Source: Spirochaetaceae bacterium (lineage in GTDB: Bacteria; Spirochaetota; Spirochaetia; Treponematales; Rectinemataceae). Taken from it: 37,003 bases of DNA. The DNA lies in contig JAOABY010000016.1 of assembly GCA_026418115.1 (NCBI GenBank), positions 1-37,003 on the forward strand. The letters are read 5' to 3'. The notes below the pieces were generated by a model, which saw only the letters and a program-made list of their open reading frames with translations, did not search any database and was not told the DNA's origin. Made by a program: the position numbers and the translations under genes. Positions 23,096 to 33,757 of this stretch are shown here, piece after piece (within the stretch, counting starts at the first letter, position 1; every line of letters starts with the position of its first letter).

Positions 23096-23124
23096 TTGCA
23101 AGACCGACCTGTTTTCGCTATTAT
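23096..23124 (+). promoter_or_regulatory. Promoter of the yhhQ-type gene, probably leaderless
   Basis: TTGCAA (23096-23101), a 17-base spacer and TATTAT (23119-23124) end seven bases before the ATG at 23132. Transcription would therefore begin at or next to the A of the start codon. No ribosome-binding site is present between them. Confidence 0.65.
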
Positions 23125-23131
23125 CCGCGCC

Positions 23132-23818
23132 ATGAATGACGTGTCGCTCAGACGGAAAATCGAGGGCGCTACGCCTGCCTTCATCTTTCTTGCAGTACTG
23201 TATGGAGCTCTGCTCATCATCTCGAACATCACCGTAGTCAAACTGGTGAAAGTAGGGCCATTTCTCCTTACGGCAGCGTTCTTTACCTATCCGGCGGTCT
23301 ATGTCATCAGCGACATCATGACCGAAATCTATGGCTACAGACTCTCAATGAAAGCAATCTGGGCCAATTTCACCGCCCAGGCTCTCGTGGCGGGAGTTCT
23401 CGCCTTTACAAGAATGCTTCCCGGGCAGGATCCTCAGATTGCAGCAGCAATGGATGTGCTATTTGCATCTACCTGGAGGATTGTAGTTGGCTCTCTGGCT
23501 GCCTACTGGATTGGCGATTACATGAATTCTGTCATCATGTCCAGGATGAAGGTGGTACAGAAGGGCAAATGGTTCTTCATCAGGGCGATGGCATCGAGCC
23601 TGCCAGCGCATTTCGTCGACACGGTACTCTTCAACGTTGTTGCGTTTGCGGGCGTATGGAGCTCTGGGGATATTGTGCGCAATGCTCTTTCGGAGTCATC
23701 ACTGGCCAGTGTCTATGAGCTGGTACTCTTTCCGCTGACCTATGTCATAGTCAGGGCGTGGAAGCGGCTTGAGGGGATCGATGTCTATGATGAAGGCGTC
23801 CGCTATGTGCCCTTCTGA
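23132..23818 (+). CDS. yhhQ: Queuosine precursor transporter (YhhQ/VUT family)
   Basis: Inner-membrane carrier of the YhhQ family, which imports queuosine precursors (preQ0/preQ1) for tRNA modification. The 228-residue product has about six spans with family motifs: YGALLIISNITVVKLVKV, FTYPAVYVISDIMTEIYGY (about 52-70) with its conserved acidic residues, and RAMASSLPAHFVDTVLFNVVAF (about 153-174). The ATG at 23132 is favoured over an upstream in-frame TTG at 23096 because that TTG is part of the promoter. No preQ1 riboswitch is visible, and there is no room for a leader. The 3' end overlaps the minus-strand gene at 23803 by 16 bp. Confidence 0.88.
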   Translation: MNDVSLRRKIEGATPAFIFLAVLYGALLIISNITVVKLVKVGPFLLTAAFFTYPAVYVISDIMTEIYGYRLSMKAIWANFTAQALVAGVLAFTRMLPGQDPQIAAAMDVLFASTWRIVVGSLAAYWIGDYMNSVIMSRMKVVQKGKWFFIRAMASSLPAHFVDTVLFNVVAFAGVWSSGDIVRNALSESSLASVYELVLFPLTYVIVRAWKRLEGIDVYDEGVRYVPF

Positions 23819-25905
23819 GATGGTTCCGCGGCAGCAAGTGTTCTGAATTCCTTTTCAAGCCAATCCTCGTTCTGGTCACGAAGATCCTCAAGGTGCTGCC
23901 GGAGGTGTTCAGTACGGTCTGCAAGCGGTGCAGCAGCGAGTCCTCCAGAGGCGAGGGATGCTTCGGCTTCCGAGGCCTGGAGTGCTGCAAGATCGAGAGA
24001 AAGGCGCCGCAGTTGGGCAAGATTGGCATCAAGTTTGGCCCGTAATGCTTCGCGGCGCTCCTGCAGCATCTGGCATGAGGATTCCTGGGCTTCGATTTCG
24101 GCGATATTTCTGTCGAGCTCCTGTGCGAGATCTCCTTCTGCACGCTGTCTTCTTGCAAGCAGAGCCTCCTTGTCGCGTGCCAGCGCGGCGAGCGGTATTT
24201 CTGCCACAATGCGGTCCAGTTCGTTGAGTGTGCCGGCGATGAGGAGAATCTGCTGCAGGCAGGCATCTGCTGCCTTCCTGGTCTCTTCTGCATCGTCAGG
24301 TGCCATCTGTGTGTAACGTGCAACAAAGGCGCGCGCATCAGCCTCTGCCTTGCGGTACAGTGGAGCATAGCTTCCCAGCTTCTTGTCGATGTTCCTGTCC
24401 GCCTCGAGAGATGTACCTTCGGGTCGAAGCCCTTCAGGTCCCAGGGAGGCAAAGAAAGAGCGAAGACGGGAAGGCATTGAGACAACATGTTTGATGCTTC
24501 TTGCAGCGAGGTTTATGCCGAGTATTGCAGAAGGAATGAAGAGTACCGGCTCAAAGCTCTCCGACAGAAAAGAGATGATTGAAAAAATCGCTGTAACGAT
24601 ACCGAATCCGAAGAACCTGCCAATGAAGCGATGCCTTTCCCTATTGATCTCTTTGTATTCTTTCAGCTGCTGTTCGTTCAGGGAGGCGATTCTTGCAGCT
24701 TCTTTTGCAATCCGCTGTGCCTGCAGGGTACTCGCAAATCTGCGAAGCAGGCCCAGCAACCAGAAGAGAGCGACGAAAAATGCAAATGGCACATCAGCGC
24801 CGGAAGCCGAATTGATATAGAACAGCAGCGCATTGACACCAAGAAAGCTGATGAGCGAAGGCAGGATGGATTCCTTTTTCCTGCGAGCATCCCGTGCCAG
24901 CTCCTGCAGATACAGCATCCCAGGGTCATTCGCGGTATCGGAAGTCGCTCGGGATCTGTCTCTTTTTCTCGCCGGATGGATGGATTCCTGCTCCTGATCA
25001 GGCCGGGACTGGGCGTGGTTTGACGCATGCCGAACAGCCCTGGTGCGAACGCTCTGTTCGATTTCCGATACGATGGCGTGAATCACCTGCTCAAGCTGCA
25101 TGCCGGCTGCTTCCCATGAGGGCTGCTCCATATTTGAGGAGCGAAGTATTCCCTTGGCAGCCAGATCCCTGATTGCTTCTCTGCCTGCATCACCTAGTCC
25201 TGCAACAAGCGCTGCAGCCTCCGGAATCGAGAGTCTCCGGCCGGCTTCCCTTATCCCCTCAAGAATGGTCTGGCGTGCCTGCTCACGCAGACCGGCAGCA
25301 TCTGTAGGGGCGGTGGCAAAGAGAGAAGACGATCCTGAAGTCTTTTTTGAGGTGTTGCCCTTATCCTGACCGCCAGCCACTGAGCCTTCCTGATCAACGA
25401 CTATGAAAGCAGGCAGCACATTGCCGCCCATGGAAGGAATCTGGACTGGCCGAACTGTGAGATCTGTATGCTGCGCAGCAGACCATGCGGCACCCGATAT
25501 ACAAATGCTGCCGCAGGGAGCATGGCGCTGAAGCTGTTCTGCTATATCGAGAGCACCGCCCAGTGCCGTATTTCCTGAAAGCATGACGTCTCCAATGTGG
25601 ATGCCTATGCTCACCGAGGGTAGCATCTGGTGGGAATCGGCCTTGCTCTGCTGGTTGGCAGCAATGGAGTGCTGAAGTCTGAGGGCAGTCTGAAGAGCCT
25701 TGCTGGCAGTCGGGAAAACAGCAATGGCCTCTTCAGGCGACGAATGTACCATGATTCCGTCTTCCGAAGCTGCGATTGAGGCGACCAGCTCGCGGAATGC
25801 AGCAAGCTGTGTGAGAGCGTGCTCGGCTCCCAGCTCCATCATGGACCTGGTATCAGCAGGAGCAGCATGCAGTATTGCTGCAAGGCGCATGGCAGTATCT
25901 GGCAT
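23803..25905 (-). CDS. Degenerate class III cyclase domain fused to a four-span membrane region and coiled coil
   Basis: I recognise the parts but not the whole. Residues 1-180 resemble a class III nucleotidyl cyclase: AIAVFPTASKALQTALRLQ, then VSIGIHIGDVMLSG and GGALDIAEQLQRHAPCGSIC. The metal-binding and catalytic positions are changed: no Asp at the first strand, PEE where GDG is expected, and ALDIAEQL in place of the VNxAxRL segment. A helical stretch (about 205-255) and a charged linker follow, then a two-span segment (about 345-390), a second two-span segment (about 428-470) and a long charged coiled coil (about 485-690). A regulatory pseudo-cyclase is a reasonable guess. It lies in the same frame as the exonuclease gene upstream, 12 codons past its TGA. 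Start is uncertain: ATG 25905 or TTG 25914, neither with a clear ribosome-binding site. Confidence 0.75.
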   Translation of the reverse strand: MPDTAMRLAAILHAAPADTRSMMELGAEHALTQLAAFRELVASIAASEDGIMVHSSPEEAIAVFPTASKALQTALRLQHSIAANQQSKADSHQMLPSVSIGIHIGDVMLSGNTALGGALDIAEQLQRHAPCGSICISGAAWSAAQHTDLTVRPVQIPSMGGNVLPAFIVVDQEGSVAGGQDKGNTSKKTSGSSSLFATAPTDAAGLREQARQTILEGIREAGRRLSIPEAAALVAGLGDAGREAIRDLAAKGILRSSNMEQPSWEAAGMQLEQVIHAIVSEIEQSVRTRAVRHASNHAQSRPDQEQESIHPARKRDRSRATSDTANDPGMLYLQELARDARRKKESILPSLISFLGVNALLFYINSASGADVPFAFFVALFWLLGLLRRFASTLQAQRIAKEAARIASLNEQQLKEYKEINRERHRFIGRFFGFGIVTAIFSIISFLSESFEPVLFIPSAILGINLAARSIKHVVSMPSRLRSFFASLGPEGLRPEGTSLEADRNIDKKLGSYAPLYRKAEADARAFVARYTQMAPDDAEETRKAADACLQQILLIAGTLNELDRIVAEIPLAALARDKEALLARRQRAEGDLAQELDRNIAEIEAQESSCQMLQERREALRAKLDANLAQLRRLSLDLAALQASEAEASLASGGLAAAPLADRTEHLRQHLEDLRDQNEDWLEKEFRTLAAAEPSQKGT

Positions 25906-25938
25906 CGAGCCCAAGCCTACAACCAGCAGTCGCAGCGG

Positions 25939-27876
25939 TCAAGTAATTTCAAAGACGGCATTGAGGTCCGGGACTGAAATGCTCCTCACCACAAGGCGGA
26001 CCCGCTGATCTGGCGTGAGTCTGCGCGAGGTGCGCACGCTGCATTCATAGCCGAATTCTGGAATCAGCAACTGGGCGGAATCGGCACCGGCATCCAGAAC
26101 TATTGCCTGGCCACTCCAGTCCCTGTGGGTGGCAAGGAATACCATTGTCCAGTGAGCCCTCGAATCCCGCTCGGCCTGACGGTTGCGTGAAGCTGCGAGA
26201 TTTGCCTGATACAGACGCTCTGCCACTGCATCCTGGCTGAGCAGCTCTGCCATATCGTGATTCCTCTGAGGAGAGCTGTGCAGTCGTTCTCTGACGAGCA
26301 TGGCATGAATCTGATAGTGGGCCAGAAGATCCTGATAGCGCCTGAGCGGGCTCGTGACCTGAGAATAGAAAGACAGCCCAAGTCCTGCATGTGCCGAACA
26401 GGTGCTGCTCACAAGGCTTGCCCGCATGACCCGGCGCCGACAGAAATTCTCGGCAGGGCTTTCGGAGGGTCCCATGCCGCAGCCTGCCTGTTCGGCCGAT
26501 ACTGGCTGATCCTGACTCGTATAGGGGAATGGTATGCCTCGTTCAAAGGCCCATCGTGCACATGCTTCACCAGCGAGAATCATCATCTCCTGCACTATGC
26601 GGGCTGAACGTGTGGAGGGGACCTGAAGGAACCGGATTATTCCATTCTCAACGCGGATTGCGGTTTCCGGCAGATCGATATCGACAGCACCATTCCGGCG
26701 ACGGAACGCAGCTCTGATTGCTGCAGCATGGGCGAGTGCTGTCATGAGTACATCTCCTGCGTCCAGCAGTCTATCCGCTTCCTCGTAGGAGAGACGTCGG
26801 ACAGCGATTCTGCTTGGCACTACCGTAAATTGAGCAATTCTACCCGATTCGTCTATCTCCATGCCGAATGAGAGGGCAGGCGTAGTCTCCTGCAAACCCA
26901 GACCAAGGCTATCGACCACAGGTGCAGGCAGCATGGGAATAATGCCCTCTGGCAGATAGAGTGTGGAGCCGCGCTCCATGGCCTGGCGGTCCAGTGGCGA
27001 ATCAGGGGCGATGAAGGCCGCCGGGTCTGCGATATGAACCCATATCCTTGTGCCTTCGATTGATACTGCATCATCCGGATCATGCGACCATGCATTGTCA
27101 ATGGCATATGCATCCAGATGGGTGAGGTCAACCCGCTGGATCTCGAGATCGGGCCGCTCAGCAAGAGGGCCTTCAATTTCAGGTATGGACAGCATGCAGC
27201 CGTTTCGCTCGGGCCAGGGATTGGTGGTGATATCCCACAGGCCTGTCTGCAGCAGTGCCTGGTGCACAGCTTCCGGCAGTACCTTCAAGCCAAGATCCCG
27301 GGCAAGCTGACAATCAGCGATCTGTCCTCTGACATAGCGCGAGAGCTCATCAGAAAAGGGCTGGAATTTCTGCTCCTCGCGAATTGACGTGGACTCACGG
27401 GCACGCAGAGCAGCCTTGAAGGCCCTGATGAACTCCTCTCTGGCCTCTGCAGCTGCTCTTTTCCTGTCTGCCTTTTCTCTGATTCTGCTGATTTCCTCGG
27501 TACTCCGGATACGAATGCCGGCATCGACCATTTCCACTTCCGGCACATTCTGCAGCAGGCGCCAGGCGGCGAGTATGTGGTCCGGACTGTCCGACCCCCA
27601 GGCAAGACTTGCAAGTTCCTTCCAGGTAATGAGATCGAGACCTTCGGGATACTCTGATTGCAGCAGCGAGATGGCTTCCGCAAGCAGCGCTGGATCAATG
27701 TCGGCAGTAGCTGATGCGAAGCTCTGCATGGGTCCTTCATGGATCAGCGCGACATCCTTGGCGCGAACCTTTCTTTCGTCGCCATCGAGCGTAGTTATGA
27801 TAAACCTGTCAGCATCGGTACCGGTTATCAGGGCTGGCCGATTGCGGTACAGGACGAGAGATCGGAGACGGATCAT
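25939..27876 (-). CDS. RNase II/R family 3'-5' exoribonuclease (RNB domain)
   Basis: Processive RNA exonuclease of the RNB family, acting in RNA turnover. The 645-residue product has the catalytic Asp cluster AYAIDNAWSHDPDDAVSIEG, with D260, D266, D268 and D269 at the spacing of RNase II. The later YSQVTSPLRRYQDLLAHYQ (about 525-543) holds the conserved arginine-rich element. The N-terminal region (1-240) lacks clear cold-shock domains and is closer to the plastid/cyanobacterial RNase II-like group, so I give no gene symbol. The ATG at 27876 has no ribosome-binding site, but a -10 box ends six bases before it, so the message is probably leaderless. It heads an operon with the pseudo-cyclase gene. 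Confidence 0.88.
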   Translation of the reverse strand: MIRLRSLVLYRNRPALITGTDADRFIITTLDGDERKVRAKDVALIHEGPMQSFASATADIDPALLAEAISLLQSEYPEGLDLITWKELASLAWGSDSPDHILAAWRLLQNVPEVEMVDAGIRIRSTEEISRIREKADRKRAAAEAREEFIRAFKAALRARESTSIREEQKFQPFSDELSRYVRGQIADCQLARDLGLKVLPEAVHQALLQTGLWDITTNPWPERNGCMLSIPEIEGPLAERPDLEIQRVDLTHLDAYAIDNAWSHDPDDAVSIEGTRIWVHIADPAAFIAPDSPLDRQAMERGSTLYLPEGIIPMLPAPVVDSLGLGLQETTPALSFGMEIDESGRIAQFTVVPSRIAVRRLSYEEADRLLDAGDVLMTALAHAAAIRAAFRRRNGAVDIDLPETAIRVENGIIRFLQVPSTRSARIVQEMMILAGEACARWAFERGIPFPYTSQDQPVSAEQAGCGMGPSESPAENFCRRRVMRASLVSSTCSAHAGLGLSFYSQVTSPLRRYQDLLAHYQIHAMLVRERLHSSPQRNHDMAELLSQDAVAERLYQANLAASRNRQAERDSRAHWTMVFLATHRDWSGQAIVLDAGADSAQLLIPEFGYECSVRTSRRLTPDQRVRLVVRSISVPDLNAVFEIT

Positions 27877-28436: not shown

Positions 28437-28865
28437 ATGAAGACCGTATTTGTGACACCTGCCTCTGCAGAGCGCACGTGGTACGTTATCGACGCTGCAG
28501 GCAAACCGCTTGGTCGAGTAGCAGCCAGAGTTGCCAGCATTCTCCGCGGCAAGCATAAGCCAACGTACGAACCCAGCCAGGAAACCGGCGATTACGTGAT
28601 CGTCCTCAATGCCGACAAGGTAATTGTGACTGGCAGAAAGCGCCAGAACAAGATGTACTACTACCACACCGGTTTCCCGGGCGGCATCAAAGACTTCACG
28701 TTCAATGAGCTGATGGGCAGAAACCCTGTTCGCCCGCTCGAAATTGCGATCCGCGGCATGCTTCCCAAAGGGCCACTTGGTCGCAAGCTGTACAAGAACG
28801 CGAAGGTATATGCGGGTTCCGAGCATCCGCACGCAGCCCAGCAGCCCATCGCGATCGATCTCTGA
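28437..28865 (+). CDS. rplM: 50S ribosomal protein L13
   Basis: Early-assembly protein of the large ribosomal subunit. The 142-residue product has the usual length and motifs: [19 protein letters not shown] near the N-terminus, [18 protein letters not shown], and the conserved [12 protein letters not shown] and [13 protein letters not shown]. It is followed 17 bp later by rpsI, the standard L13-S9 pair. The leader before it holds inverted repeats that may control the operon. Confidence 0.98.
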
Positions 28866-28882
28866 TCAGGAAGGTGTAGAAG

Positions 28883-29281
28883 ATGGTCAAGAACATCAAT
28901 CTCGGAATCGGAACCGGTCGCAGAAAATGCGCCGTTGCACGCGTATTTCTCCGTGAGGGCACTGGCAAGGTGATTATCAACCAGAAAGAGCTGCAGGAGT
29001 ATTTCGTCCTTGAGAATCTCGTAGCTCAGGTCAGGAAGCCCCTCCAGGTCACTGACAGCGAGAACAAATTCGATGCCTTCATCACGGTGGTCGGAGGAGG
29101 ACCCGCAGGCCAGGCAGGCGCATGCACGCATGGTCTTGCTCGCGCGCTTGCACAGGTTGATCCCGCCAATCATGCTGCGCTGAAGGCCAATGGGCTTCTT
29201 ACCCGCGATCCGCGCATGGTCGAGCGCAAGAAATACGGCCAGCGTGGCGCACGCCGGAGATTCCAGTTCTCGAAACGCTGA
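28883..29281 (+). CDS. rpsI: 30S ribosomal protein S9
   Basis: Small-subunit protein whose C-terminal tail reaches the ribosomal P site. The 132-residue product contains GTGRRKCAVARVFLREGTGK (about 8-27), VVGGGPAGQAGACTHGLARAL and the basic C-terminus ERKKYGQRGARRRFQFSKR, which ends in the conserved Lys-Arg. An AGGAAGG site precedes the ATG. The start of recX lies only three bases after its stop codon, with no terminator between. Confidence 0.98.
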   Translation: MVKNINLGIGTGRRKCAVARVFLREGTGKVIINQKELQEYFVLENLVAQVRKPLQVTDSENKFDAFITVVGGGPAGQAGACTHGLARALAQVDPANHAALKANGLLTRDPRMVERKKYGQRGARRRFQFSKR

Positions 29282-29284
29282 TAC

Positions 29285-29959
29285 ATGTCCTGGCGGATTG
29301 CATCAGTGGAATCCAGGGCCTCCGAGACGCTTGCAATGGCGCTCTCCGGAGGCCTTGTCTTTGTGTTCGACAGTACCGACTGCAGCCTCAATGATCCGCC
29401 CCTCTCATTTCAGACCCTTGCCTGCCAGCTGCAACCAGGTGCCATCCTCGATGAGAGTGCCTTTGCAATGCTGCAGAAACTTGATGCCTTGCATCAGGCA
29501 CGCCAGACGGCGCTGGCTCTCATTGCAAGAATGGAACAGGGCTCACGCCAGCTCCATGACAAGCTTCTTGCACGAGGAATTGAACCGCAGGCAGCACATG
29601 CAGCCGTAGCGTGGGCCTTGCGCAAAGGCTTTCTCGATGATGTTCGCTATGCACGGATGGTGCTGCGTGATCGATGCATTCGCAAGGGGCAGGGCGTCCG
29701 GGCTGCTGCAAACGTAATTCATCAGCGCACCGGCCTTCTGGAATCACCAAGAAACATCCTCCAGCAGGCGCTCGCTTCTTTCGATGATGAGATGTGGTAT
29801 GAAGCCTGCCGTGCCTCTGAAGCAAGACTCAAGAAAAAGCTGGCGCAGAAACACGCTCAGGAAACAGTCGGTCAGACGTACAGGCAGCTTCTTGTACACT
29901 GGCTGCGTGATCAGGGCTTCCCCCCATATGCCATCTCGCGATATAGTGAAAACAACTGA
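29285..29959 (+). CDS. recX: RecX family regulator of RecA
   Basis: Small helical protein that binds RecA filaments and limits their activity. The 224-residue product holds the RecX repeats: ALALIARMEQGSRQLHDKL (about 78-96) with the Arg/Ser-x-x-Glu/Gln-Leu pattern, and AVAWALRKGFLDDVRYARM (about 110-128), which matches the family's L-x-x-x-G-F/Y-L-D/N-D-x-x-Y/F-A. The N-terminal 60 residues are poorly conserved. It begins three bases after rpsI, so it is probably translated from the ribosomal-protein message; recA is not in the window. Linking recX to a growth-regulated operon is unusual. Confidence 0.85.
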   Translation: MSWRIASVESRASETLAMALSGGLVFVFDSTDCSLNDPPLSFQTLACQLQPGAILDESAFAMLQKLDALHQARQTALALIARMEQGSRQLHDKLLARGIEPQAAHAAVAWALRKGFLDDVRYARMVLRDRCIRKGQGVRAAANVIHQRTGLLESPRNILQQALASFDDEMWYEACRASEARLKKKLAQKHAQETVGQTYRQLLVHWLRDQGFPPYAISRYSENN

Positions 29960-29981
29960 ACGTTTTTCTTGTATGCAATAC

Positions 29982-30011
29982 TTGACAGACCTTACAAAGC
30001 AATTCAATAAT
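29982..30011 (+). promoter_or_regulatory. Promoter of the HTH-EIIA fusion gene
   Basis: TTGACA (29982-29987), an 18-base spacer and AATAAT (30006-30011) lie 34 bases before the ATG at 30046. The -35 is perfect and the -10 has five of six bases. Confidence 0.6.
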
Positions 30012-30045
30012 ATGTCATGAAATTCAAGTCGGAGGGATGCACCGC

Positions 30046-30699
30046 ATGGATGACGATATCCTTACCATAGAAGAAGTAGCCAGATATCTGCGAGTCTCCG
30101 AACGCACTGTATATGACTGGGCGCAGAAAGGGGAGATCCCTTCAGGGAAGATAGGCACCGTCTGGCGCTTCAAGAAGAGCGAAATTGAACGGTGGGTCAA
30201 TGAACGCTTGTCATCCAATAGACCGATGGCACTCATCGGCAGTGTGAAGATTCAGAATATCATCTCGCCCGACCGGATTGTATTTCTGAATTATCCGACC
30301 AAGCGTGATGCCCTGATTGCGCTGGCCGAAAATCTTGCCACTGCTCCACAGATCAGGAACAAACAGGAACTGGTATCGGAAATCCTCAGGCGTGAAGAAC
30401 TCATGAGCACTGCAATAGGGAAGGGTATCGCCATACCCCACGTGCGCCTGAATTCCGTTACCGACCTTGTCGTATCCATCGGCATTTCCAGATGTGATAT
30501 CACCGATTTCCAGTCTCTCGACGATGTGCCTGTCCGGCTGCTCTTCATGATTGCCGCGGCGTACAACCAGCATGCATACTATCTGCAGACCCTGTCCTTC
30601 TTCTCGGCCAGGCTCAAGGTGACCGAGCTTCGTGATGGTCTGCTTGCCTGCAAGACGCCGCAGGAAGCATACAACCTGCTGGTGAGGCAGGACGAATAG
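30046..30699 (+). CDS. Excisionase-type HTH fused to a PTS EIIA-Ntr domain
   Basis: Two-domain protein of 217 residues. Residues 4-53 are a MerR/excisionase-type winged helix: LTIEEVARYLRVSERTVYDW, then GKIGTVWRFKKSEIERW. Residues 66-215 form an EIIA type 2 domain with the phospho-accepting His in GKGIAIPHVR (H132), like PtsN. The likely function is a DNA-binding regulator whose activity depends on phosphorylation, or a phospho-sensor placed at DNA. Such PtsN proteins with an N-terminal HTH are known in treponemes. The ATG at 30046 is preferred, with GGAGG ten bases upstream; the ATG at 30037 abuts the Shine-Dalgarno. A terminator follows. The second, single-domain EIIA at 6197-6649 is a natural partner or competitor. 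Confidence 0.88.
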   Translation: MDDDILTIEEVARYLRVSERTVYDWAQKGEIPSGKIGTVWRFKKSEIERWVNERLSSNRPMALIGSVKIQNIISPDRIVFLNYPTKRDALIALAENLATAPQIRNKQELVSEILRREELMSTAIGKGIAIPHVRLNSVTDLVVSIGISRCDITDFQSLDDVPVRLLFMIAAAYNQHAYYLQTLSFFSARLKVTELRDGLLACKTPQEAYNLLVRQDE

Positions 30700-30704
30700 C
30701 TGGC

Positions 30705-30728
30705 AAGGCACCTGTGAAGGCACCTGCG
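30705..30728 (+). repeat. 12-bp tandem duplication
   Basis: AAGGCACCTGTG (30705-30716) is followed directly by AAGGCACCTGCG (30717-30728). The second copy can pair with the descending arm of the terminator that follows, so it may extend that stem. Confidence 0.6.
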
Positions 30729-30739
30729 GGGATCGCACG

Positions 30740-30763
30740 AGCACTTCCTGCGGGTGCTTTTTT
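30740..30763 (+). terminator. Intrinsic terminator of the HTH-EIIA gene
   Basis: AGCAC (30740-30744) pairs with GTGCT (30754-30758) before a run of six T. A longer alternative stem uses GCACCTGC (30720-30727) with GCGGGTGC (30750-30757). The smc start lies 28 bp beyond. Confidence 0.65.
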
Positions 30764-30790
30764 CATTCCATGAGGTGAAAGGATGCGCCA

Positions 30791-33757
30791 GTGTACCTGA
30801 AATCGCTTGAAATATTCGGATTCAAGTCCTTTGCGGATCGTACACGCATAGAGTTTGCCAAGGGCATTACAACCCTGCTCGGTCCCAACGGGTGCGGCAA
30901 GTCCAACATAGTTGACGCCATCAAGTGGGTCGTTGGGGAGCAGTCTGCAAAAAGCCTTCGTGCGGAGAGCATGGAGGACATCATCTTCAATGGCACAGAA
31001 ACGAGGAAACCCCTTTCTGTCGCCGAAGTGGCGCTCACCATTGCCAATGATGAAGGTGATTTGCCGCTCGACATGCCGGAAATCGAGGTGAAACGTCGAC
31101 TCTACCGATCAGGCGAGAGCGAATACTACATAAACGGCAGACAGGTCAAGCTCAAGGAAGTTCGTGAGCTGTTCTGGGATACCGGTATTGGCAAGTCAGC
31201 CTATTCGGTGATGGAGCAGGGCCGCATTGATCAGGTGCTCTCCTCACGCCCCGAAGACAGGCGCTATCTCTTTGAAGAGGCTGCCGGCATCACCAGGCAC
31301 AGAGCAAGGGCACGGGAAGCGGAGCTCAAGCTTTCCAGAACCGAAGAGAACATGCGTCAGATCGAAAGCGTGCTCAACGAGGTTCGGAAATCCTATGAGA
31401 CACTGAAAGCACAGGCTCAGAAAACGAATGAATACCGTGCTCTCAAGGAAGCGATATTCGAGACCGACCGAGATCTCTACCTTGTGAGGCTCAGACAGTT
31501 CATCCGCGACCGCGACCGCAGAAAGTCTGAATTTGAGCTGAAAAAGCATGAGCGTGACCAGCTCATGCAGCGCATCGAGCAGATGAGCAGTGCCATGTCC
31601 CAGGGGCTCGATGTGGTCAACGAGCTCGAATCAAAGCTCGTGGAGATGCAGAAACTGCTGTATGGTCTGGCCGTGGAGAAGAATGGCAAGGAAAAACAGC
31701 GATCCCTCTTTCTGGAAAGAAGGCGCGAACTTGAGGCAAAGATCGCCCAGCTTGAGGGGCGCGATCGCGCCATCGCAGGCAAAATAGAAGCGCTGCAGGA
31801 AGAGGAAGGAGAGAAGGAAGCCGAACACGCAGGCTACCGTACGAGGCTCAGGGAAATAGAATCAAATATCAAGTCGTTCGAGGATGGGATCAACGCAGCC
31901 TCACTCGCGGTAAAAGCCAATGAAGAGACAGCCAGGCGCAACCGCCAGGAAATTCGCGAAATACAATCAGCTACCGACGAGCTTCGAGCCAGGCTCGATG
32001 GCATTACCGAGCGCATCGCTGAACTGGTGGACAGGAGGCTGAGAGAATCCGAAACTCAGATCGCATCCCGCGGCGAACTGGAACATCGCATGCGTGCGCT
32101 TGCAGGCGAAATAGCTGCTGCGGCTGCAGCCAGAGGTGCAGCACTCGAGGATATCGCCAGAACTCTCCATGCGCTGGCTCCCTCTGATGCCGCCGCGCGC
32201 CTTGGCGCCCTGGCGGAAGCGCTCCAGGATCTCGCGAAGCGCTCCTCCGAACTCGGACTCGTTATCCGGGACTATCTTGCCACCGCTCCGACGTTTTTTG
32301 CCGAACTCGTAGCTCCCGAAGGCGTCATGACGCAGAAACGTCGCATAGATGCTGCAATCGAGGAGAATCTGGCAAAGTCGGCAGCACTGGAAAGCCAGAA
32401 CCAGGCCCTGCTGGGCAAAAATGCGGATCTTGCAGAGAAGATAGAAACCTATCGGGCGACGCTGGAACAGGCGCGCATGGAGAAGTCGAAAATCCAGGCG
32501 CAGATGGATGCTTCTCTCGATGCTCTCACGGTGCTCAGGCGGGAAATAGCGGGACAGGAAGCCTATCGCCGGGAAATTGCCGCAGAACTCGAGGGGGAGA
32601 GAAAACGCCTTGCGCAGCTCGCTGAGGAAATTGACGCGCTCGAATCGGAAATTGCGGAAATCGAGCGCAGAGGACGGGCACTGTCCTCACAGATGTCCCA
32701 GATCGAGGCTGATATCGAGCAGAGGAACTCCGATCTGGCAGAGCGTCGAAAGGAATCTTCCGAACTTGAGACAAAGCTCGCTTCTCTGCAGAGTGAAATC
32801 GAATCTCTTCATCTGCAGATGGTGCAGCATGAAACCGAAATTCGGAACATAAAAGATACTTTTGCTGATCTCTATTCGCGGGATCTGCTCTCCTTCGAAC
32901 AGCGGATGTATGAGATACGTGAGCCGCTTTCCGAAATCAGAGAGCGCCTGAACCAGCAGAAGGGCAAGCTGGCTGCGCTTGGGTCCGTCAACCTCATGGC
33001 GCCTGAAGAGTTTGAGGAAGTGAAACAGCGCTATGAGTTTCTCTCGAGCCAGTTCGAGGATCTCGTGAAGGCCAAAGCGGACCTGGTGAGAATCACTGAT
33101 GAGATCCGTACCGAGAGCGCTCAGCTGTTCGTGACGACCTACAACCGCATCAAGAAGAATTTCCACAATATGTTCCGCAGGCTGTTCGGGGGTGGCAGGG
33201 CGGAGCTCAGGCTCATGGACCCGGATCATGTTCTCGAGACAGGCATTGAAATCTATGCACAGCCTCCCGGGAAAAAGCTGGAGAATATCTCTCTGCTCTC
33301 AGGAGGTGAAAAGACACTCACTGCAATCGCCCTGCTGTTCGCCACCTATCTGGTGAAACCATCCCCCTTCTGTTTCCTTGATGAAATAGATGCAGCACTC
33401 GATGAGGCCAACGTCATCCGCTTTGTGAATCTGCTCAGGGAATTCGGCACGACAAGCCAGTTCATCGTCATTACCCACAACAAGAAAACCGTGTCAGGTG
33501 CAGATACCATGCTCGGTGTCACCATGGAAGAATCTGGTGTCACCAAGACCGTCACCATCAAGGTCCAGCACCTTGAGAACGGGGTCACCAGGCCGGTGTA
33601 CGAGCCCGATGGCAGCTTTGTTGAGGAAGAAGTCGACTTTGAGGATGGACGACAGCTCAAGACTTCCACATGGTCTGTGTTTGGCGGCCAGTCTGCAGCA
33701 GGTATACAGCATGGAGCCGGTACGGATGATGGCGCAGCAGGAGGAAGAGCAGAATGA
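30791..33757 (+). CDS. smc: Chromosome segregation ATPase SMC, with a reduced central region
   Basis: Condensin-type ATPase that folds and separates the chromosome. The 988-residue product has an N-terminal head with Walker A GPNGCGKS (31-38), long coiled coils, and a C-terminal head with LSGGEK (836-841) and Walker B FLDEID (to 867). At the centre, where most SMC proteins have a hinge of about 120 residues with conserved glycines, there is an Ala-rich helical stretch and a short non-canonical segment (about 435-540). A 60-residue acidic, then Gly-rich tail follows the head. Typical SMC has about 1150-1200 residues; spirochaete SMC proteins are known to be shorter. GTG at 30791 is the start, with AAAGGA eight bases upstream. 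Its stop overlaps the next ATG by four bases. Confidence 0.93.
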   Translation: MYLKSLEIFGFKSFADRTRIEFAKGITTLLGPNGCGKSNIVDAIKWVVGEQSAKSLRAESMEDIIFNGTETRKPLSVAEVALTIANDEGDLPLDMPEIEVKRRLYRSGESEYYINGRQVKLKEVRELFWDTGIGKSAYSVMEQGRIDQVLSSRPEDRRYLFEEAAGITRHRARAREAELKLSRTEENMRQIESVLNEVRKSYETLKAQAQKTNEYRALKEAIFETDRDLYLVRLRQFIRDRDRRKSEFELKKHERDQLMQRIEQMSSAMSQGLDVVNELESKLVEMQKLLYGLAVEKNGKEKQRSLFLERRRELEAKIAQLEGRDRAIAGKIEALQEEEGEKEAEHAGYRTRLREIESNIKSFEDGINAASLAVKANEETARRNRQEIREIQSATDELRARLDGITERIAELVDRRLRESETQIASRGELEHRMRALAGEIAAAAAARGAALEDIARTLHALAPSDAAARLGALAEALQDLAKRSSELGLVIRDYLATAPTFFAELVAPEGVMTQKRRIDAAIEENLAKSAALESQNQALLGKNADLAEKIETYRATLEQARMEKSKIQAQMDASLDALTVLRREIAGQEAYRREIAAELEGERKRLAQLAEEIDALESEIAEIERRGRALSSQMSQIEADIEQRNSDLAERRKESSELETKLASLQSEIESLHLQMVQHETEIRNIKDTFADLYSRDLLSFEQRMYEIREPLSEIRERLNQQKGKLAALGSVNLMAPEEFEEVKQRYEFLSSQFEDLVKAKADLVRITDEIRTESAQLFVTTYNRIKKNFHNMFRRLFGGGRAELRLMDPDHVLETGIEIYAQPPGKKLENISLLSGGEKTLTAIALLFATYLVKPSPFCFLDEIDAALDEANVIRFVNLLREFGTTSQFIVITHNKKTVSGADTMLGVTMEESGVTKTVTIKVQHLENGVTRPVYEPDGSFVEEEVDFEDGRQLKTSTWSVFGGQSAAGIQHGAGTDDGAAGGRAE

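Follow-up and report, generated by a model that had tools for sequence, protein, structure and literature searches.

Genetic organisation of the locus

The window considered here, i.e. the whole stretch of DNA that was analysed, comprises 37,003 nucleotides of a contig from a Spirochaetaceae bacterium. The gene under study is read on the minus strand, from an ATG at 25905 to a stop codon ending at 23803 (an alternative start, TTG at 25914, is possible), and codes for a protein of 700 aa, P0001. Its features are listed below, together with the exonuclease gene next to it.

23803..25905, minus strand: pseudo-cyclase/four-transmembrane (4TM)/coiled-coil protein P0001, 700 aa (open reading frame; homologues in 37 of 59 related genomes)
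25390..25893, minus strand: class III cyclase-fold domain, residues 5-172 (phmmer, 3mr7, E=2e-10; Foldseek, 4wp8, E=7.6e-11, TM 0.87)
25861..25863, minus strand: A15 in place of the first metal-binding Asp (ungapped alignment with intact relatives)
25744..25746, minus strand: H54 in place of the purine-selecting Lys (alignment with intact relatives)
25732..25734, minus strand: E58 in place of the second metal-binding Asp, the GD motif having become PE (alignment with intact relatives)
25534..25548, minus strand: D120-I-A-E-Q124 in place of N-I-A-A-R, which holds the ribose-orienting Asn and the transition-state Arg (alignment)
25126..25299, minus strand: three-helix, HTH-like GRR linker, residues 203-260, with the invariant RR of GRRxSxxEA (alignment; AlphaFold2 pLDDT 85)
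24724..24873, minus strand: first transmembrane hairpin, residues 345-394 (hydropathy; Pfam 2TM at 350-416)
24493..24630, minus strand: second transmembrane hairpin, residues 426-471 (hydropathy; AlphaFold2 helices 411-447 and 453-492)
23809..24408, minus strand: C-terminal helical/coiled-coil region, residues 500-699 (AlphaFold2 helices; conserved across the family)
25939..27876, minus strand: RNase II/R-type exonuclease with an RNB domain (Pfam RNB, E=7.6e-63; motifs; conserved pair)

The RNB gene lies 33 bp upstream of P0001 on the same strand, and its product, which has the active-site Asp cluster and the TSPLRRY motif, looks functional. The same arrangement, with both genes on one strand and about 30-100 bp apart, is found at most loci of two bacterial families (f1 and f4), where rplM-rpsI-recX-ptsN-smc lies on the far side of the pair. 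In the window this block (with a ptsN-like gene) extends beside the RNB gene from 28437 to 33757; it is conserved across the two families and makes a useful synteny anchor. The 3′ end of P0001 overlaps tail-to-tail (23803-23818) with a Vut_1 transporter gene on the plus strand (23096-23818).

A class III cyclase fold with a replaced active site

The earlier note on this DNA, made from its letters, had taken the N-terminal part of P0001 for a class III cyclase that keeps the fold while its metal-binding Asp residues and VNxAxR-type segment are replaced, and both parts of this reading are borne out. In a phmmer search of PDB sequences, residues 6-142 match the class III cyclase 3mr7 (E=2e-10), and a profile of the protein family described below finds the same entry at E=2.9e-44. 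The AlphaFold2 (AF2) model of P0001, built from 25 sequences (mean pLDDT 79.5), has a pLDDT of about 80-95 over most of the length of the N-domain. All 50 matches listed by Foldseek for this model are class III cyclases, the best of them being 4wp8 (E=7.6e-11, target TM 0.87, 20% sequence identity). The domain thus has the cyclase homology domain fold that marks the class III fold family. No match to Pfam Guanylate_cyc (PF00211) was obtained for P0001 at E<=1, which is consistent with a degenerate domain.

Comparison with intact relatives, i.e. those carrying the five signature cyclase residues D15, K54, D58, N117 and R121, gives the replacements D15 to A15, K54 to H54, D58 to E58, D110 to T113, N117 to D120 and R121 to Q124 (the alignment is ungapped there; the first number of each pair refers to the intact relatives and the second to P0001). 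All five signature residues are therefore replaced, and P0001 has neither the two metal-binding aspartates of class III enzymes (A15, E58), nor their substrate-selecting Lys/Asp pair (H54, T113), nor the Asn/Arg of the NxxxR motif (D120, Q124). The change of D58 to Glu retains an acidic group, so some residual metal binding is conceivable. In the intact members, the five residues and D110 are invariant or nearly so; we take this set, with the roles assigned to its residues, to be that typical of adenylyl-type class III enzymes, and the intact members would, judging from these residues, be active enzymes. The N-domain resembles the Ma1120/3mr7-type class III cyclases (4wp8, 3mr7; PF00211) in fold over about 170 residues, but differs from them in the loss of the five signature residues and of the PF00211 match, and in the position of the head, N-terminal to the four spans and the tail.

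Linker, membrane spans and tail

Two further claims of the earlier note, that the four spans form two hairpins and that about 200 C-terminal residues form a coiled coil, also hold, the second with an addition. Hydropathy places the spans at residues 345-366, 366-394, about 426-446 and about 450-471, each hairpin being flanked by Lys/Arg on its cytosolic side, and on these two grounds both ends of the protein should be cytosolic. The first pair matches Pfam 2TM (PF13239) over residues 350-416 (E=5.9e-8; 33.1 bits vs a gathering threshold of 24.8), and the second gives no separate Pfam match. Unlike other proteins with the 2TM domain, P0001 has two hairpins in succession between a cyclase fold and a long tail. 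In the AF2 model the C-terminal region of about 200 residues is helical (500-534, 536-569, 572-588, 592-652 and 658-699), and judged from these helices the tail is predicted to combine coiled coil with helices that fold back.

The linker of about 60 residues occurs once per genome and gave a single weak match outside the family (E=5e-5). Both the RR and the Glu of its GRRxSxxEA motif are invariant and persist also in members that have lost the active site, and the linker could be the real interaction site. A profile search with residues 203-260 returned weak GntR/S25-like matches; with Foldseek the same region gave E>1 throughout, many of the matches being winged helices.

An apparently undescribed family in spirochaetes

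The homologues of P0001 in 37 of the 59 related genomes, most of the genomes examined being metagenome-assembled (MAGs), indicate that the protein is more than a product of chance. Their common order is a cyclase, the GRR linker, two 2TM hairpins and a long helical tail, and P0001 shares both this order and, according to alignments and profiles, homology over its entire length. Among 25 aligned members, Pfam Guanylate_cyc is found in 19 and 2TM in 23. A profile made from the alignment of intact members and run against named genomes retrieved spirochaete contigs with the full architecture, including Gracilinema caldarium and Treponema MAGs. Phylum-wide, a profile of the transmembrane (TM) and tail regions found the family in 21 of 345 genomes at a strict cut-off, and all but one of the matches with a full-length open frame bear a cyclase head. 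As the earlier note had supposed, no named family has this domain order in Pfam, NCBIfam, PADLOC or PHROGs, which match component parts only; the NCBIfam search of P0001 itself gave nothing useful. The open-licence literature searched on pseudo-cyclases, on class III cyclases of spirochaetes and on links between cyclases and RNases likewise contained nothing on the family. P0001 is thus a degenerate orthologue within an apparently undescribed spirochaete family whose members mostly have all five residues.

Intact orthologues in Treponematales and wider spirochaetes (L041/L086 of the Gracilinema type, L047, L013, L022) have the same domain order as P0001, and those of the two families nearest by synteny also have the RNB neighbour. 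They differ from P0001 in that D15, K54, D58, N117 and R121 are intact and the cyclase is their most conserved part. The assignment of the genomes to Treponematales is drawn from named relatives. The description of P0001 as an unusual protein therefore needs qualification: the order is real, but the architecture itself belongs to a conserved family, the typical member of which is intact.

Two other readings were considered and rejected. A phage origin finds no counterpart among the PHROGs families or in tblastn matches to phages. As for a Pycsar defence system, intact family members match PycC of PADLOC weakly (E about 1e-9), as is expected for any class III cyclase; P0001 has no PADLOC match, no Pycsar-type effector was found when ten genes of the window were scanned against Pfam, and the synteny is conserved and not that of a mobile defence island.

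Stepwise loss of catalysis in one clade

Intact DKDNR (the residues at positions 15, 54, 58, 117 and 121) is found in 43 family members. In a tree built from the TM and tail regions only, which is therefore independent of the active-site trait, the proteins without the active-site Arg form one clade (SH-aLRT 100), with the exception of L084; a reduced tree of the same regions recovers the clade with UFBoot 100 and SH-aLRT 100. When distant intact members are added, the degenerate clade nests inside the family of intact ones, a placement from which we infer that the intact state is the older one. Four neighbouring genera have lost part of the catalytic set, and the signatures are graded: DKDNA in g12, DKDDL in g14, DQDTS in g6, ERDDI in g13, and EEGDE or AHEDQ in g1, the genus of P0001. 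With D110 included, the six positions read A, H, E, T, D and Q in P0001 and mostly E, E, G, G, D and E in the rest of its genus. L084 is a separate case of Arg loss (DKDVN, Asn and Arg both gone). The oddity of P0001 is thus a clade-specific loss of catalysis in a family that typically carries an intact cyclase.

The identity of the N-domain compared with that of the tail follows this series, being 82.5% vs 54.1% among intact relatives of the same family, 31.9% vs 49.7% in the partly degenerate genera and 59.8% vs 58.3% in g1. In four species of g1, dN/dS is 0.08-0.16 for the dead domain and 0.08-0.20 for the tail, as simple Nei-Gojobori counts in which dS approaches saturation where the pairs are more distant and which exclude P0001 itself as too distant (about 36% identity). 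By this estimate, purifying selection continues to act on the dead cyclase domain within the genus. Taken together, the change in head identity and the low dN/dS indicate that the constraint fell from very strong to ordinary without vanishing.

The gene is an open frame in five g1 genomes, one of them (G003) cut by the contig end, and new invariant positions have appeared in the genus, examples being H13, Glu at position 120, C132 and, in all five, Asp at the position of the catalytic Asn. In three other genomes of the genus (G001, G004 and G008) the gene is cleanly absent from the syntenic place and the RNB gene is retained, and in G005 the contig ends at the gene's place. G002 has a broken copy (L146:4411-5585) with a frameshift and about 0.9 kb missing; its head and tail lie in different frames and the linker/TM region is gone, although an assembly fault could also produce this. 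This patchy presence suggests that the gene is useful to some members of the genus only.

A small set of cyclic-nucleotide genes

The genomes of the degenerate clade carry 1-3 PF00211 domains each, compared with 8-29 in intact relatives of the same family and 7-14 in the intact genomes of other families tested. For the cNMP-binding domain PF00027, the corresponding numbers are 0-4, 13-26 and 11-17. Genome size alone does not explain the low counts, since two genomes of 2.7 Mb (G018 and G051) have 8 and 11 cyclases and an intact family protein. The host of P0001 has one canonical, apparently intact CHASE2-type cyclase and one in which the Lys and Asn are altered. In the latter (L175:4037-5476, contig C22) these residues have become T and A, respectively, and both Asp and the Arg are kept.

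A second, independent loss is seen in G046 (a 99% complete genome from the same taxonomic order), where a head-less member of 508 aa (L174:7056-8582) consists of the four spans and the tail (310 bits), with neither cyclase nor linker; this genome has only 3 class III cyclases. The genome of L084 has 7. The three cases (main clade, G046 and L084) point one way; being one main event and two weaker ones, they are too few for statistical proof.

What P0001 may be for

The data are probably best explained if P0001 is a pseudo-enzyme that has retained its membrane scaffold and has persisted beyond the contraction of cAMP signalling. The common ancestor would have made cAMP, the head being its cAMP output, and selection on catalysis would have ceased once most of the cyclic-nucleotide network had disappeared from the lineage. 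The membrane-anchored coiled-coil part would have gone on serving as an oligomeric scaffold or as a platform that binds partners; the dead cyclase fold would now be its head for dimerisation or docking, and several members of the genus would later have lost the gene altogether. Selection on the dead protein in several relatives suggests that the part made up of membrane spans and coiled coil has a function in its own right. Catalytically dead bacterial class III cyclases seem to be scarcely described, and none was found in the open-licence papers searched. At one locus fixed by synteny, the family presents intact, partly dead and fully dead enzymes as a natural series, to which a head-less version can be added; it is therefore a clean system both for asking what membrane cyclases do besides making cAMP and for following how a second-messenger network is dismantled.

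A scaffold is not indispensable, however: with the gene deleted in three g1 genomes and broken in one, its job can be dispensed with and P0001 could be slowly decaying. In its plain form, decay would mean that no function is maintained, catalysis having been lost first and frameshift and deletion following as seen in G002 and in G001, G004 and G008. That the N-domain is less conserved in the degenerate clade fits this too, but the open frames in five g1 species, the dN/dS of about 0.08-0.20 in both halves and the predicted N-domain fold, with its pLDDT of about 80-95 along most of the domain, make it rather unlikely.

We consider it a speculative and similarly doubtful extension that the four spans and the tail are primarily a structural membrane platform throughout the family, for example tethering the RNase II-like exonuclease or other partners. 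The head would then be an optional cAMP output, switched off by point mutation in the P0001 clade and L084 or by deletion in G046.

The nucleotide-sensing role that the earlier note had put beside a scaffold fares worse than the scaffold, which is the best reading. Here the emptied pocket would bind a nucleotide or small ligand and signal via the membrane helices to the tail, as the retained fold and length and the new genus-invariant positions would allow. Degenerate GGDEF/EAL receptors keep a signalling-enzyme fold after catalytic loss and bind ligands; they are an analogy from an unrelated enzyme class, and binding is demonstrated only for them. In P0001 the metal, base and ribose-phosphate residues are all replaced, and what the heads of its genus keep from the intact family is mainly glycines and the hydrophobic core, which makes sensing improbable.

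An equally weak case can be made for a role in RNA turnover, which the exonuclease neighbour had suggested, with P0001 tethering or regulating a co-transcribed RNase II-like enzyme. The conservation of the pair in f1 and f4 and the seemingly functional exonuclease speak for it. However, the RNB gene stays where the P0001-type gene is deleted (G001, G004, G008), lies 2.5-3.8 kb from the family gene in two loci (L046, L040) and was not found adjacent in the distant relatives with flanking sequence (f5, f8, f9 and f12). RNB and P0001 are a conserved operon-like pair, and the pairing does not show that they act by a common mechanism.

Class III cyclases function as dimers, and the host keeps two other cyclases that a degenerate domain might complete or control as a heterodimer. 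To supply a half-site, however, a domain must carry the two Asp or else the Lys, Asn and Arg; the P0001 head has neither set, which makes it a most implausible partner, and half-site complementation was rejected on the residues.

A minor observation concerns the naming of one record. L098 (G326), a sulfidic cave MAG deposited as Borreliella garinii, appears to be part of a 3.4 Mb genome with a 4TM cyclase, and its species name is probably wrong.
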